Shown: in pieces, positions 48,351 through 51,566 of the stretch
Position numbering within the stretch: position 1 is the first letter of the stretch
Layout: every line of letters begins with the position of its first letter
NCBI GenBank assembly: GCA_946405625.1
Contig: CAMJHQ010000004.1
Span: forward strand, 1-64,000
Length of the DNA: 64,000 nucleotides
From: an uncultured Lachnospiraceae bacterium
Lineage (GTDB): Bacteria > Bacillota > Clostridia > Lachnospirales > Lachnospiraceae
Reading direction: 5' to 3'
The notes under the pieces: model-generated
The model's database searches: none
What the model was told of the DNA's origin: nothing
Seen by the model: only the letters and a program-made list of their open reading frames with translations
Translations under genes and position numbers: made by a program

Positions 48351-49652
48351 TCATATGATGATATCAACCACAAATCGTCCGTCTACTATATCATTTACAT
48401 AGAATCCTTCATGTTTTTCCACTACTTCGCGGACATTCTGTGTTCCGAGACCATGATTCACAGAATCCTCCTTGGTAGTTTTGAGTTCGCCCTTCTTCGG
48501 TATATCCTTAAGCACCGTATCGTTATCAACAGAGATTCCGATCTTCTCTCCGATATTCTTCACCTTAACATGCACTGATTTAAGAGGGCCTTCAACCTTC
48601 ATGCAGCCCTCGATGGCATTCTGGATTATATTGAAGAAGATAGTACATAATTCGAAATCGCTTATGTTGTCTCTCGTCTTCATAATTCCGTCAAAAACAA
48701 AGCATATACCCTTCTCATCCATCTGGTGCTTCAATTCATTTATTACCGCATCGACAGCTATGTTGCCCGTATATCTCTTCGCCTTCATTGAATCCGACTT
48801 CTCTTCCATATCGGAAAGATATTCCAGCATACGCTCATCATCACTCTCGTACGCAAATTCCCTTAACGCGGAAATGTGAGCCCTCATATCATGTCTGAGC
48901 TTCCTTACTTCCTTATCGTTTTTTATGAGATTTTCAAAATATTCCGACTGGGATCTTATCATATATTGATAATTTATCTCCCGCTCCCGCATCTGAATAT
49001 TCTTGGTCATAATACGGCTCTGCCATACCATTACCACAAGGAATAAGAAGAGCAGGCACATCATTGCAAGGCTCATATAAATATATGACTGCGAACTGAG
49101 CTGTCTTCCCTTTATTATTTTTTCCAGACTCGGAACGATCAGTAAAAGGCCTCCGAAGCTCAGCAGTATGACAACCCACTGCGCCGGATAAAAATGATAT
49201 GAAACCTTCTTCCTGATGAGTACATTTATTATAATATGATATAAAACAAGGATAAAAAGAACTACGAATTTTTCTATGAATTGATTTACAGTAAAACCTA
49301 TGAGCAGATAATCATTTCTTCCGCTTATTACCGCTATCAGCTGACTTATCAGCTCCGATAGGCAATCGATCACTATCCATGAAAGGATCATAAAAAGTAT
49401 GCCCTTTAGCTTATACTTATTTTCGATAGCGAAAAAAAAGGCTGCAAAACACAGAACCGGAAGGAGATAGAAAATTCCTTCATATTGATAAAAACTGAAA
49501 TATAAGATACAGATTACGAACGAAACCGCAAGCCAGATCGGAACAGTTATTTTTTTCTTATATACGGGAATATTAAAGACAACATCCAAGCATAAATAAT
49601 ACTTTAGAAGTTCAATTAATATATAAATTGATGCCCATATATAAACGCTCAT
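48351..49652 (-). CDS. AgrC-like GHKL sensor histidine kinase
   Basis: The 433-residue membrane kinase has about seven hydrophobic helices (1-210) and then a coiled segment. The histidine box LRHDMRAH has the phospho-acceptor near residue 254, and a GHKL ATPase domain follows (about 325-433) with FFNIIQNAIEGC as the N box and GLGTQNVREVV as the G box. This plan is that of AgrC, FsrC and ComD kinases, which sense peptides. The start overlaps the response regulator stop by four bases (ATGA), so the two are coupled. No agrB or recognisable agrD lies in the window. Confidence 0.92.
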   Translation of the reverse strand: MSVYIWASIYILIELLKYYLCLDVVFNIPVYKKKITVPIWLAVSFVICILYFSFYQYEGIFYLLPVLCFAAFFFAIENKYKLKGILFMILSWIVIDCLSELISQLIAVISGRNDYLLIGFTVNQFIEKFVVLFILVLYHIIINVLIRKKVSYHFYPAQWVVILLSFGGLLLIVPSLEKIIKGRQLSSQSYIYMSLAMMCLLFLFLVVMVWQSRIMTKNIQMREREINYQYMIRSQSEYFENLIKNDKEVRKLRHDMRAHISALREFAYESDDERMLEYLSDMEEKSDSMKAKRYTGNIAVDAVINELKHQMDEKGICFVFDGIMKTRDNISDFELCTIFFNIIQNAIEGCMKVEGPLKSVHVKVKNIGEKIGISVDNDTVLKDIPKKGELKTTKEDSVNHGLGTQNVREVVEKHEGFYVNDIVDGRFVVDIII

Positions 49653-50371
49653 GTATGCAACTCCCTGCGTAAATACTTCTGATATTCTTCTCTGACCTGA
49701 GCTCTGTAGATGCGTCCGATGGTACAGGTTTCCCCGCTTTTAAATGACGCAGTGGTTCCGGTCATATTCTTAATATAATCAAGATTAACGATATATGATT
49801 TATGAATTCTGAGGAATGGAAGTCCATTCAGCATCCTCTCACACTCCTTAAGAGTGCAGGATACAACTCTCTCCCCCTCCTCTGTATATACAGTACAATA
49901 ATTGGAATCGGCCTTTATGTAAACCATATCTGACTTTCTTATATAGATAGTACCGTTATAATCAGAAAACTCCACCAAAGAATCGTTGATCTTCTTCTTG
50001 TAAATGATATCTAGATATTTAAAGATATCATCATCGGTAAAAGGCTTTGTGATAAATCCCTTTGTTTTATATCCAAAGGAATCCCATACCGCTTCCGGAT
50101 GGCTGGACACAAAAACAATATTATGGATGTTGGACATTTTCTCGGCTTCCTTCATAACAGCCAGTCCGTCCATAGAATCCATCTCAACATCAAGAAACAA
50201 TATATCTATTTCTTTACTGTTATCCTGAATCAGATCATTTCCACGATAATAAGAAGAGATTTCAAATTCAATCTCCTTGTTATCAAAAAATCTGCTGCAG
50301 GATTCAGAAACTGCTTTATGCCACTTCGTATCATCATCACAGATACCAATGCTAAAAACAACACTATCCAT
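49649..50371 (-). CDS. LytTR-family response regulator (AgrA-like)
   Basis: The 240-residue regulator has a receiver domain (1-125) with the acidic pocket CDDD (11-14) and phospho-acceptor D61 in ILFLDVEMD. A LytTR DNA-binding domain (about 140-240) contains MVYIKADSNYCTVYTEEGE and FLRIHKSYIVNLDYI. Such regulators bind direct repeats on one face of DNA to activate promoters. The frame opens at 50437, but the ATG at 50371 has AAGGG eight bases upstream and starts at the family N-terminus. Its likely targets are the boxes at 50541-50590 and 51012-51041. Confidence 0.92.
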   Translation of the reverse strand: MDSVVFSIGICDDDTKWHKAVSESCSRFFDNKEIEFEISSYYRGNDLIQDNSKEIDILFLDVEMDSMDGLAVMKEAEKMSNIHNIVFVSSHPEAVWDSFGYKTKGFITKPFTDDDIFKYLDIIYKKKINDSLVEFSDYNGTIYIRKSDMVYIKADSNYCTVYTEEGERVVSCTLKECERMLNGLPFLRIHKSYIVNLDYIKNMTGTTASFKSGETCTIGRIYRAQVREEYQKYLRRELHT

Positions 50372-50415
50372 TGATAAAACCCTTCCCAATAGAAAAAAGT
50401 TACATACAGAAATGG

Positions 50416-50444
50416 ATTTTACCATATTTATGCACAAGGTACAA
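50416..50444 (-). promoter_or_regulatory. Promoter of the response regulator/kinase operon
   Basis: On the minus strand, TTGTAC (50444-50439) and TAAAAT (50421-50416) are 17 bases apart, about 45 bases before the regulator start codon. Confidence 0.6.
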
Positions 50445-50540
50445 TAACTCTGTGCAATTCATGTCGATTTTCGGCAAATCTGACAGTTCGCTTTGGGTTT
50501 TATTTAACAATAACATACCACGAATTTTTGAATTCCGATA

Positions 50541-50614
50541 TGTCGTTCACATAAAAAAAGTGTCGTTCACTAAAAAATTATGTCGTTCACTAAATCGTTA
50601 TACCATTTTATAAT
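50541..50614 (+). promoter_or_regulatory. Three LytTR-type boxes and promoter of a small-peptide transcript
   Basis: The ten-base sequence tgtcgttcac occurs three times without change at 50541-50550, 50561-50570 and 50581-50590, exactly 20 bases apart. The core CGTTNA resembles LytTR sites, and repeats spaced by two helical turns fit that family. The last box overlaps a poor -35 (TTCACT, 50586-50591), 17 bases before a perfect -10 TATAAT (50609-50614). This is the usual arrangement of an activator-dependent promoter. Confidence 0.7.
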
Positions 50615-50665
50615 GGTTTATATTATACTAAATGCAATCATTATTTTTAGGAGGGTTACTACTGA

Positions 50666-50761
50666 TGATTATACTTTTTAACATCTTTGAATGGCTGAGA
50701 ACACTTTAAAGGCAAAGCCTTTTTCTTCAATAAGCTATACCTACTCTTTAATCGGAAATAG
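50666..50761 (+). CDS. Candidate small cationic hydrophobic peptide (31 codons)
   Basis: A short open frame starts MIILFNIFEWLRHFKGKA and continues with Phe, Leu, Tyr and Lys to a stop at 50759-50761. Net charge is about +5 (R12, K15, K17, K23, R30, K31 against E9), with nearly half the residues large hydrophobics. There is no Gly-Gly or signal leader. AGGAGGG lies nine bases before the ATG. The stop codon falls inside the 5' arm of the terminator at 50756-50792, and the promoter carries LytTR boxes. It could be a leaderless bacteriocin-like or modulin-like peptide, or a signal. A small GC-poor hairpin (aaaggcaaagccttt) lies inside the frame. No relatives are known to me; translation is not proven. 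Confidence 0.5.
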
Positions 50762-50797
50762 CACATAAGCAATGGGGGCTTATGTGCTATTTTTCTT
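50756..50797. terminator. Shared bidirectional terminator for convergent peptide transcripts
   Basis: The arms aaatagcacataagc (50756-50770) and gcttatgtgctattt (50778-50792) pair perfectly over 15 bases with a seven-base loop. T-runs follow on the plus strand. Stop codons of the plus-strand 31-codon frame and the minus-strand frame at 50780 both lie within the hairpin arms. Confidence 0.9.
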
Positions 50798-50851
50798 CAG
50801 TTCACAAATATGCGCATGCTGCTCATCTATGTAAATGTTATATGGTTTCAA
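50780..50851 (-). CDS. Candidate small peptide B (23-26 codons)
   Basis: A tiny minus-strand frame begins at TTG 50851, with AGGAG about eight bases upstream. An in-frame ATG at 50860 is too close to that site. It would encode KPYNIYIDEQHAHICELKK followed by NST, a hydrophilic peptide with one cysteine, and stops in the terminator arm. It overlaps the end of the 28-codon frame at 50838-50924. I recognise no family. Coding status rests only on the ribosome site and on its fit to the transcript end. Confidence 0.3.
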   Translation of the reverse strand: MKPYNIYIDEQHAHICELKKNST

Positions 50852-50924
50852 ATATATCATCTCCTATTTTTATTGCATCTTTTGATAAATTTCTGTTCTC
50901 ATATATACAGTCTATTATTTTCAT
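50838..50924 (-). CDS. Candidate small peptide A (28 codons)
   Basis: This short frame follows AGGAG at close spacing (TAGGAGTAATAATG) and would encode MKIIDCIYENRNLSKDAIK followed by IGDDIFETI. It has one cysteine near the start and an acidic end. It lies downstream of two LytTR-type boxes at 51012-51041, and its end overlaps the start of the second small frame. A mature Agr-type signal usually has a cysteine with four residues to the thiolactone end; that pattern is not evident. Function is unknown. Confidence 0.35.
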   Translation of the reverse strand: MKIIDCIYENRNLSKDAIKIGDDIFETI

Positions 50925-51011
50925 TATTACTCCTAACAAATCATCCATTAATAAACTCACTCAACAGACATCAGAATAAAAAAATATTATTCAATGTTCA
51001 ACGGCCAATGA

Positions 51012-51041
51012 GTAAACGACACAAATTTCATGTGAACGACA
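51012..51041 (-). promoter_or_regulatory. Two LytTR-type boxes facing the minus-strand peptide frames
   Basis: On the minus strand TGTCGTTCAC (51041-51032) and TGTCGTTTAC (51021-51012) are again exactly 20 bases apart and match the three boxes at 50541-50590. About 28-30 bases after the second box is a weak -10-like AATAAT (50991-50986). This suggests the same regulator controls both convergent transcripts. Confidence 0.6.
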
Positions 51042-51078
51042 AAAAAAGTTCAGTAGATTTGTCTACTGAACTTTTTTT
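51041..51078. terminator. Terminator after the Nudix gene
   Basis: The perfect arms aaaaaaagttcagtaga (51041-51057) and tctactgaacttttttt (51062-51078) form a 17-base stem with a four-base loop. On the minus strand the T-run is immediately followed by the first LytTR box, so the terminator insulates the peptide promoter from the Nudix gene. Confidence 0.92.
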
Positions 51079-51101
51079 ACAAAAATATATATTCAAAAAT
51101 T

Positions 51102-51566
51102 CTAAAACGAATACAACCTTCTTCCATCTGTTTTTGAATCATATGGAATCAGTTCAAATCCTTTTCCTGATATAGCACACTGTATCATCTTTTTTGTGAG
51201 TTCCGGAACTGTTTCATCTTTCATCGCATCATCAACATCCATCCATACGACCAGATCATTTTCATCTCCGTCAGACCTTGCCTCACCATCTATATAATCA
51301 GCTTCGAAAACAGCATACCAGTCTTTGGCACTGAACCGAATTCCCATTAATCTTCCGGCCTTAACCGATACTCCTGTCTCCTCTTTAAATTCTCTAGCAA
51401 GTGTTTCTTCCGGTATCTCTCCGAAGTCGACATATCCTCCCGGAATGATAAGCATCCCTTTACCTTTTCCATAAGTCTGTCTTGCCAGCAAAACCTTTCC
51501 GTCTTTTATACAAACTCCACCTACCGATTGACTCCAGTTTGTTTTTCCATAATCTACAGCTGTCAT
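51102..51566 (-). CDS. Nudix hydrolase
   Basis: Nudix enzymes cleave nucleoside diphosphates linked to another group. The Nudix box GGYVDFGEIPEETLAREFKE continues ETGVSV, matching GX5EX7REUXEEXGU. The frame opens at 51623, but GGGGG lies just before the ATG at 51566, which also starts near the usual N-terminus (about 154 residues). The NWSQSVGGVCIKDGKVLLARQ start is typical of the ADP-ribose or ADP-sugar group, but substrate cannot be assigned. It ends just before the LytTR-controlled region. Confidence 0.9.
   Translation of the reverse strand: MTAVDYGKTNWSQSVGGVCIKDGKVLLARQTYGKGKGMLIIPGGYVDFGEIPEETLAREFKEETGVSVKAGRLMGIRFSAKDWYAVFEADYIDGEARSDGDENDLVVWMDVDDAMKDETVPELTKKMIQCAISGKGFELIPYDSKTDGRRLYSF

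Follow-up and report, generated by a model that had tools for sequence, protein, structure and literature searches.

A leaderless mini-ORF beside an AgrC-like kinase and a LytTR regulator as a candidate pheromone gene for bacteriocin control in Lachnospiraceae

The window analysed here is a 64,000-nucleotide stretch of contig CAMJHQ010000004.1 from an uncultured Lachnospiraceae bacterium (assembly GCA_946405625.1; 3.3 Mb on 70 contigs, genome G000 below), and it carries on its minus strand a gene pair that a preliminary description of this DNA had called AgrC/AgrA-like, an assignment confirmed by the matches to PF14501, PF00072 and PF04397 (Table 1). The regulator scores 45.5 bits against the NCBIfam AgrA model, far under the cut-off of 400. 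When a profile of the kinase family was compared with the PDB at E ≤ 0.001, the sole sequence match was the kinase module of Staphylococcus aureus AgrC (E 7e-12), and the top fold matches in the PDB were S. aureus AgrC constructs, matched in the kinase half only. An AlphaFold2 model of the kinase built with 21 sequences (pLDDT 80.7, pTM 0.53) predicts a GHKL domain and seven membrane-length helices, of which the last continues into the kinase. Conservation is lower in the sensor half than in the catalytic half for all 21 pairs among seven kinases of the genus. No AgrB gene adjoins the pair, as had been noted at the outset; the genome's two AgrB genes are on another contig (contig 32, 32585-33999), where they probably form a conventional agr locus.

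Table 1. Features of the kinase-regulator locus and the adjoining intergenic stretch (window coordinates)
Feature	Position	Strand	Basis or remark
AgrC-like histidine kinase, ~7 predicted membrane helices and GHKL domain	48351..49652	-	PF14501
Response regulator, receiver and LytTR domain, AgrA-like	49649..50371	-	PF00072 3e-11, PF04397 5e-18
Mechanically called frames in the stretch	50371-50613 (80 codons), 50782-50979 (65), 50810-51175 (121)	+	ORF listing
Three LytTR-type boxes TGTCGTTCAC	50541..50590, starts 50541, 50561, 50581	+	5' of mini-ORF promoter
Probable -10 region TATTATACT of mini-ORF promoter	50621..50629	+	read by eye; fits modal -10 offset
Shine-Dalgarno site AGGAGG	50649..50654	+	sequence
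Mini-ORF MIILFNIFEWLRTL, 14 codons, proposed pheromone precursor	50665..50709	+	counterparts in relatives
Hairpin, 15-17 bp stem, probable plus-strand terminator; also 3' of minus-strand stub	50754..50794	.	folding
23-codon TTG ORF 3' of stub, entering hairpin; probably not a gene	50780..50851	-	ORF listing
5' stub of AMP-ligase gene MKIIDCIYENRNLSKDAIKIGDDIFETI, 28-codon ORF, first 23 codons homologous	50838..50924	-	match to G023
Two LytTR-type boxes facing the mini-ORF	51041-51032, 51021-51012	-	latter with one mismatch

The stretch beyond the regulator had been described as free of long genes, and nothing convincing is encoded there, although mechanically called frames are present, all of them on the plus strand. 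The five near-identical boxes reported for it were recovered at their coordinates, neighbouring copies of TGTCGTTCAC being exactly 20 bp apart in both clusters; the plus-strand cluster is situated 5' of the regulator gene and is directed away from it. Single boxes are not rare in 64 kb (6 with at most one mismatch in the window versus a mean of 2.7 expected, with 6 of 100 shuffles reaching 6), whereas the 20-bp-spaced pair is: with up to three mismatches allowed, it matches 8 times in the entire 3.3-Mb genome versus once for the reversed pattern, and at up to two mismatches a scan of the genus gave 42 pair matches in 8 of 61 genomes versus 5 for the reversed pattern. At 26 of 36 genus box sites a -10-like hexamer falls within one 8-nt offset window 3' of the last box, a count that none of 300 shuffles reached. 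Abutting the minus-strand boxes is a perfect inverted repeat, AAAAAAAGTTCAGTAGATTTGTCTACTGAACTTTTTTT (51041-51078), which is probably the terminator of the Nudix gene and has the sub-threshold Rfam look-alikes SpF36 and mir-7445.

The plus-strand boxes do precede a ribosome site and a tiny ORF, of 14 codons, as the preliminary description had it. It had further proposed that transcripts from both sides end at one shared 15-bp hairpin; the stem folds, with 15-17 bp and folding z-scores of -7.1 on the plus and -6.7 on the minus strand, and its T-run is good on the plus side but poor on the minus side. A terminator scan of the region called none, this hairpin included, possibly owing to pairing of the T-run into the stem. 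Between the plus-strand boxes and the hairpin no ORF with a double-glycine (GG) leader was found, and an Rfam search of the region returned only matches under the family thresholds. A 16-nt stretch of the 3' UTR between mini-ORF and terminator, GCTATACCYACYCTTT (window 50734-50749), is kept in G000, G025 and G008 and is absent, by eye, from G023, G020 and G002.

On the minus strand, the tiny ORF behind the facing boxes had been read as the second of two convergent small-peptide messages, a reading that does not survive comparison with a relative. It matches residues 1-23 of an intact, box-preceded 474-residue AMP-ligase of G023 (65% identity, tblastn 3e-7), whose gene has a PF00501 match, and the corresponding DNA match (2e-7) spans the ribosome site. 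On this ground the minus-strand ORF was rejected as a second peptide; the minus-strand boxes (51012..51041) are probably the promoter of an AMP-ligase gene that belonged to this regulon and has been lost. Because the ORF is the 5' stub of such a gene, the facing arrangement of boxes is probably a relic and not a designed pair of messages. Facing boxes are found at the same place in one of the seven other loci of the kinase subfamily treated below, and that one lacks an ORF. For the TTG ORF 3' of the stub, the best match among the retrieved loci, its own excepted, has E 0.14. In G023, the box-preceded cluster (contig 30, locus L080, 6909-12001) comprises the AMP-ligase, a carrier protein and two more proteins, and by eye also a second AMP-ligase-like gene; of the two additional proteins, the one that was scanned had no Pfam match. 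The same locus has a divergent box pair 5' of a 24-codon ORF without Trp.

Relatives that carry names are Lachnospiraceae assemblies and genomes assigned to Eubacterium, several of the latter of rumen or abomasum origin. A search of relatives for the box spaced by 20 bp, proposed earlier as a check, showed that the pair tracks one kinase subfamily (43-75% identity to the window kinase), which occurs in 7 of the 61 genus genomes at eight loci, two of them in G020. The box pair is present in 8 of the 61, these being all seven subfamily carriers and one 58%-complete genome (Fisher 1.8e-8), and it lies beside the regulator at 8 of 8 subfamily loci. At six of the eight an ATG mini-ORF of 14-22 codons follows the boxes: MIILFNIFEWLRTL (G000), MILCNIFEWLRNRGG (G025), MIHCDILDWWRKHGWP (G008), MTRSDIFDWFRENGWP (G020), MHRTGYHSFFDYSIFSFLKSLF (G023) and MVFFDFLDLLSWLFS (G002). 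G028 keeps the boxes and ribosome site, its frame ILYNILNWILN... having no usual start codon, and at the paralogous locus of G020, on contig 64, no ORF follows the boxes. Loss of boxes and tiny frames from close relatives had been named as a sign against the system; the box pair is kept at all seven other loci and the tiny ORF at five of them (15-22 codons), so that the system passes this check in most relatives, though not in all. At the second kinase-regulator pair of G020 (L048, 6427-6699), two box pairs face each other across a hairpin-like repeat, and no ORF lies between them. The six genus mini-ORFs start 71-92 nt past the last box. Ten other box-preceded genes start 68-108 nt past it and others farther, up to 416 nt; the bacteriocin genes of G000 itself are among those farther than 68-108 nt.

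The idea that the regulon is self-contained finds no support, as the same box pair precedes bacteriocin and biosynthetic genes elsewhere in G000 and in relatives. On contig 48 of G000 a box pair is found 5' of a double-glycine peptide gene followed by genes for a C39 ABC exporter (TIGR01193, peptide cleavage/export ABC transporter, 699 bits) and an HlyD-like protein; on contig 55 a pair lies 5' of two tandem double-glycine peptide genes, a further pair lies at a contig end, and one with two mismatches precedes an acyltransferase gene (PF01757). Two of the G000 peptides were scanned: the NCBIfam model bacteriocin_sig was over its cut-off for one, and the Pfam class IIc matches of both were under theirs. 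Based on their association with the boxes, and not on expression, the GG-leader peptides and C39 exporter would belong to the box regulon. In relatives, box pairs precede radical-SAM genes, a cluster of AMP-ligase and carrier-protein genes and a C39-exporter gene cluster, as well as peptides that resemble lactococcin 972 by eye only and had no match in Pfam (two scanned) or NCBIfam (one scanned). G248 has kinase, mini-ORF, regulator, GG-peptide and C39 exporter in one cluster. In this genome (L123, 195-1489) the kinase, next to the 28-residue mini-ORF, is split over two frames by an assembly error or decay.

Outside the genus, 397 genomes of the family were scanned for the box pair, with a match in 7 (reversed-pattern control: 1), and the kinase profile was run over these 397 as well as over 295 genomes of the order. 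Among the mini-ORFs that adjoin the kinase or diverge from the regulator are MMYLMDIWDWLSGR (G579), MFGLEIILAQAGFWDWIWDILTGGKKTS (Acetatifactor sp., also in G721), MFNKFGKNFVLFEYDFWEWLCYILGINP (G248), MIASIDWSWLWKLFG (G229), MLLDCSILWWLFKLIG (G236), MYFANDNTIWEWILSILNGGR (G203), MTFSGLYRDIWEYIFKLLGK (G061) and MLCDIDWINWFISMFGKKK (G299), and MVQPLLFDWFYKIFLGNI (G488) comes from another family. The full set consists of 23 mini-ORFs of 13-28 codons from 18 genera, all beside related AgrC-like kinases, and 20 of the 23 encode Trp, those of G023, G091 and G422 being the exceptions. A search of Pfam and NCBIfam with the seven mini-peptides of at least 20 residues gave no match. Box pairs without a mini-ORF occur in G062, where the pair precedes the regulator itself, and G191, where it precedes an ABC permease; for the kinases in G207, G152, G359 and others we found no convincing mini-ORF. 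The sister kinases are informative as to position: in G456 an AgrB gene (PF04647, 110 bits) directly follows kinase and box pair, in the place of the mini-ORF, and in G592 and G142 the same place is taken by a peptide with, by eye, a double-glycine-like leader (no Pfam or NCBIfam match for either peptide). In G091 (L100, 2897-3244) two small peptides rich in Cys, MRYIRRPENVYVVGECYNCPCNKNCTNNH and one resembling it, are encoded after the mini-ORF and may be bacteriocins. Two further short ORFs are outside the 23: MSVLIIDWSWIWDWLWW (17 codons; L136, G194), divergent from the regulator and taken from a looser exploratory scan, and MKKATIMNVYDLL (13 codons without Trp; L148, G395), 158 nt past the kinase, with a box-like pair by eye.

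The composition of the 23 peptides is distinctive. Trp makes up 40 of 397 residues in frame, whereas the two other forward frames have 1.3% and 4.8% and a background of 648 Shine-Dalgarno-preceded ORFs has 2.5%; an acidic residue adjoins Trp in 13 of the 23 versus 5.7% of the background (0 of 20000 draws as high). For the six genus mini-ORFs the figures are 8 Trp among 92 residues, reached by 61 of 20000 length-matched background draws, and a [DE]W motif in four of six, reached by none of 20000. The peptides are short (13 of 23 have at most 18 residues) and hydrophobic, with net charges of -3 to +1, Lys/Arg depletion and a mean amphipathicity above that of shuffled copies (Stouffer z 3.4); Cys is absent from 16 and present in 7. 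In a quick tree of 70 kinases the mini-ORF label is clustered, with 12 changes versus a shuffled mean of 19.4 (0 of 500 as low).

Because the 23 were partly chosen by judgement, the test was repeated by rule, with Shine-Dalgarno-preceded ORFs of 11-32 codons at most 200 nt downstream of the kinase. For 28 family kinases this gave 14 ORFs, in which 23 of 247 residues are Trp, a count reached by none of 20000 draws. Such an ORF was present at 13 of the 28 family loci (11 with Trp) versus 3 of 23 same-genus control kinases (2 with Trp, these being one ORF in two near-identical loci), for Fisher values of 0.015 (ORF) and 0.022 (ORF with Trp), and at 8 of 29 order-level kinases, 2 with Trp. The Trp signal is therefore strong, and family kinases exceed the controls by a real, though modest, margin. 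An earlier scan reaching 500 nt downstream, with the same site and length rule, 28 distinct family loci and 23 same-genus controls (three with short flanks), found an ORF at 16 of 28 (12 with Trp) versus 5 of 23 (1 of 6 ORFs with Trp). As to how the 23 were chosen, the first 13 were picked by box pair and Shine-Dalgarno site, with the exception of G217, which was picked partly by eye, and that first set without G217 has 18 Trp in 208 residues. Left out were the ORFs of L132, L143, L148 and L151 (the last with Trp) and the second ORFs of L100 and L153; the omission of L148, with its box-like pair, was not even-handed, since L138, L140 and L141 were kept without a clear pair, and with L148 included 20 of 24 peptides have Trp. 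Of the 29 order-level loci L157 and L160 were kept and L158, whose Shine-Dalgarno site is unusually far from the ATG, was added by eye, while ORFs at L162, L163, L164, L171, L173, L177 and L182 (one of the two at L182 with Trp) were left out; at L173 a box-like repeat is present but is succeeded by a long ORF.

We also looked for maturation and export partners. AgrB occurs in 13 of 24 mini-ORF genomes tested, in 12 on other contigs and in one 13 kb away; it is within 12 kb of the mini-ORF kinase in none of the 24, and 11, some of them incomplete assemblies, have no AgrB at all. C39 matches are missing from 6 of the 24, and G236 (100% complete) and G175 (97%) have neither AgrB nor C39. None of the 23 of 24 genomes that possess a polyprenyl synthase has it on the kinase's contig, and EcsB, the exporter family of the ComRS/XIP and SHP/Rgg peptides, was not found in the window's genome. 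AgrB, a ComQ-like synthase, EcsB and C39 were thus rejected as obligate partners, none being common to all genomes or in place.

Taken together, the boxes, the genes behind them, their link with the kinase subfamily and the recurrence and composition of the mini-ORFs, all read directly from the genomes, lead us to consider it probable that this system is a peptide quorum-sensing switch for bacteriocins, in which the mini-ORF is an auto-induced pheromone gene with neither AgrB nor a double-glycine leader. The mini-ORF would encode a leaderless, Trp-containing pre-pheromone of 14 residues that leaves the cell and, once density is high, is recognised by the membrane portion of the neighbouring AgrC-like kinase. 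The kinase would then phosphorylate the LytTR regulator, which would bind the tandem 20-bp-spaced boxes just 5' of the -35 and activate the mini-ORF itself, a positive feedback, along with the double-glycine bacteriocin genes elsewhere in the genome; in relatives the targets would be the radical-SAM, C39-exporter and AMP-ligase clusters. Our main argument for regarding the mini-ORF as the signal gene is that its position matches that of pheromone genes in the sister loci, together with its composition. As none of the known maturation partners is obligatory, export is the weakest step of this explanation. We lean, by a small degree, towards the wider proposal that leaderless peptides of 13-28 residues with an acidic-Trp core, beside AgrC/LytTR pairs of Lachnospiraceae (at least 18 genera) and one neighbouring family, make up an undescribed and widespread Gram-positive pheromone class that replaces AgrBD or GG-leader signals and works without AgrB, ComQ or C39.

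Phenol-soluble modulins are under direct AgrA control, and the mini-peptide might likewise be an effector, i.e., a leaderless membrane-active peptide made together with the bacteriocins. Its shortness, hydrophobicity, Trp content and amphipathicity would suit that role, as would the LytTR-type boxes and the regulation shared with bacteriocins; however, the low charge and Lys/Arg depletion are unlike most membrane-lytic peptides, the non-kinase box sites we examined have no comparable promoter-near Trp mini-ORF (that of L080 being the Trp-free one), and the mini-ORF occupies the position of AgrB in the sister system, so that we regard an effector as unlikely. A somewhat less probable explanation is that the peptide is never exported and stays in the membrane as a feedback micro-protein that tunes the kinase from inside, which would agree with its hydrophobic composition, its autoregulatory placement and the lack of AgrB, C39 or EcsB as common or correctly placed partners. 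Over half of the peptides, though, have at most 18 residues, which is little for crossing a membrane, and the sister locus has a secreted-pheromone gene. Variability in sequence next to a rapidly evolving sensor is a typical mark of secreted ligands, and here too the variable peptide adjoins the fast-evolving sensor half.

Two other explanations seem very improbable to us. Were the plus-strand transcript to work as an RNA (RNAIII-like, or a leader RNA) with an incidental ORF, the strong terminator-like hairpin and the retention of GCTATACCYACYCTTT in three genomes would be accounted for, but not the enrichment of Trp and [DE]W in frame, and the conserved stretch is missing from the three others, with no Rfam match at family threshold in the region. 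Hardest of all to credit is the original picture of two convergent small-peptide messages making up the system: both box clusters and both tiny ORFs exist, but the minus-strand ORF is the AMP-ligase stub, and facing boxes are lacking at this place in six of the other seven loci of the subfamily, while the seventh has no ORF. In place of these we retain the pheromone reading, by which the earlier interpretation was half right and understated, the mini-peptide being one member of a recurrent and apparently undescribed group.

The signals for AgrC-type kinases of gut and rumen Lachnospiraceae without an adjacent AgrB have so far not been obvious. If the pheromone reading is true, they are encoded, in many genera, by mini-ORFs that most gene callers would miss as too short, and each predicted peptide would be open to synthesis and testing, which would provide chemical means of acting on bacteriocin production in rumen and gut; a new question would then be by what route a 14-mer without a leader gets out of the cell and how an AgrC-like receptor reads it. 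In the open-access literature we recognised no report of such mini-peptides beside AgrC-type kinases in Lachnospiraceae, and as the search covered open-access texts only, novelty is provisional. A 2026 survey of Hungate1000 bacteriocins names E. ruminantium lanthipeptides, and its text has no mention of LytTR (PMC13289728).

Compared with known systems, the locus resembles agr (AgrBDCA) in its AgrC-like GHKL kinase with about seven predicted helices, its LytTR regulator, its tandem boxes and a peptide gene beside or divergent from the kinase-regulator pair; unlike agr, it has no AgrB nearby and no AgrD-like precursor with leader, core and tail, and 16 of the 23 mini-peptides are Cys-free. The three-component systems of class II bacteriocins (plantaricin, Blp, ComCDE) combine a kinase and LytTR regulator with tandem repeats, GG-leader bacteriocins and a C39 exporter, all of which have counterparts here, but the pheromone we propose has no double-glycine leader and 6 of 24 genomes have no C39 match. 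The ComRS/XIP and SHP/Rgg systems of streptococci share with our candidates a tiny hydrophobic ORF, Trp (in XIP) and no dedicated maturase; their peptides, however, act on cytoplasmic Rgg-type regulators once imported, whereas the neighbours here are a membrane kinase and LytTR regulator, and EcsB is absent from the window's genome. In ComQXPA a variable short peptide with an invariant Trp is sensed by a membrane kinase (PMC5331326), the RO-E-2 form of ComX being GIFWEQ (PMC5385187), and the precursor, of 53-58 residues in six strains, is modified by ComQ (PMC5331326). The pairing of a variable short Trp peptide with a membrane kinase is thus alike, while our peptide genes have no ComQ-type synthase beside them and encode shorter precursors (13-28 residues). 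The LytTR Regulatory Systems HdrRM and BrsRM have direct repeats about 10 bp 5' of the -35, separated mostly by 12 bp and in a few cases by 11 or 13, positive feedback, bacteriocin targets and a membrane inhibitor protein with no kinase (PMC6193735). LytTR direct repeats just 5' of the -35 and bacteriocin targets recur in the locus described here, for which we likewise propose positive feedback, but with a GHKL-domain kinase in place of the membrane inhibitor.
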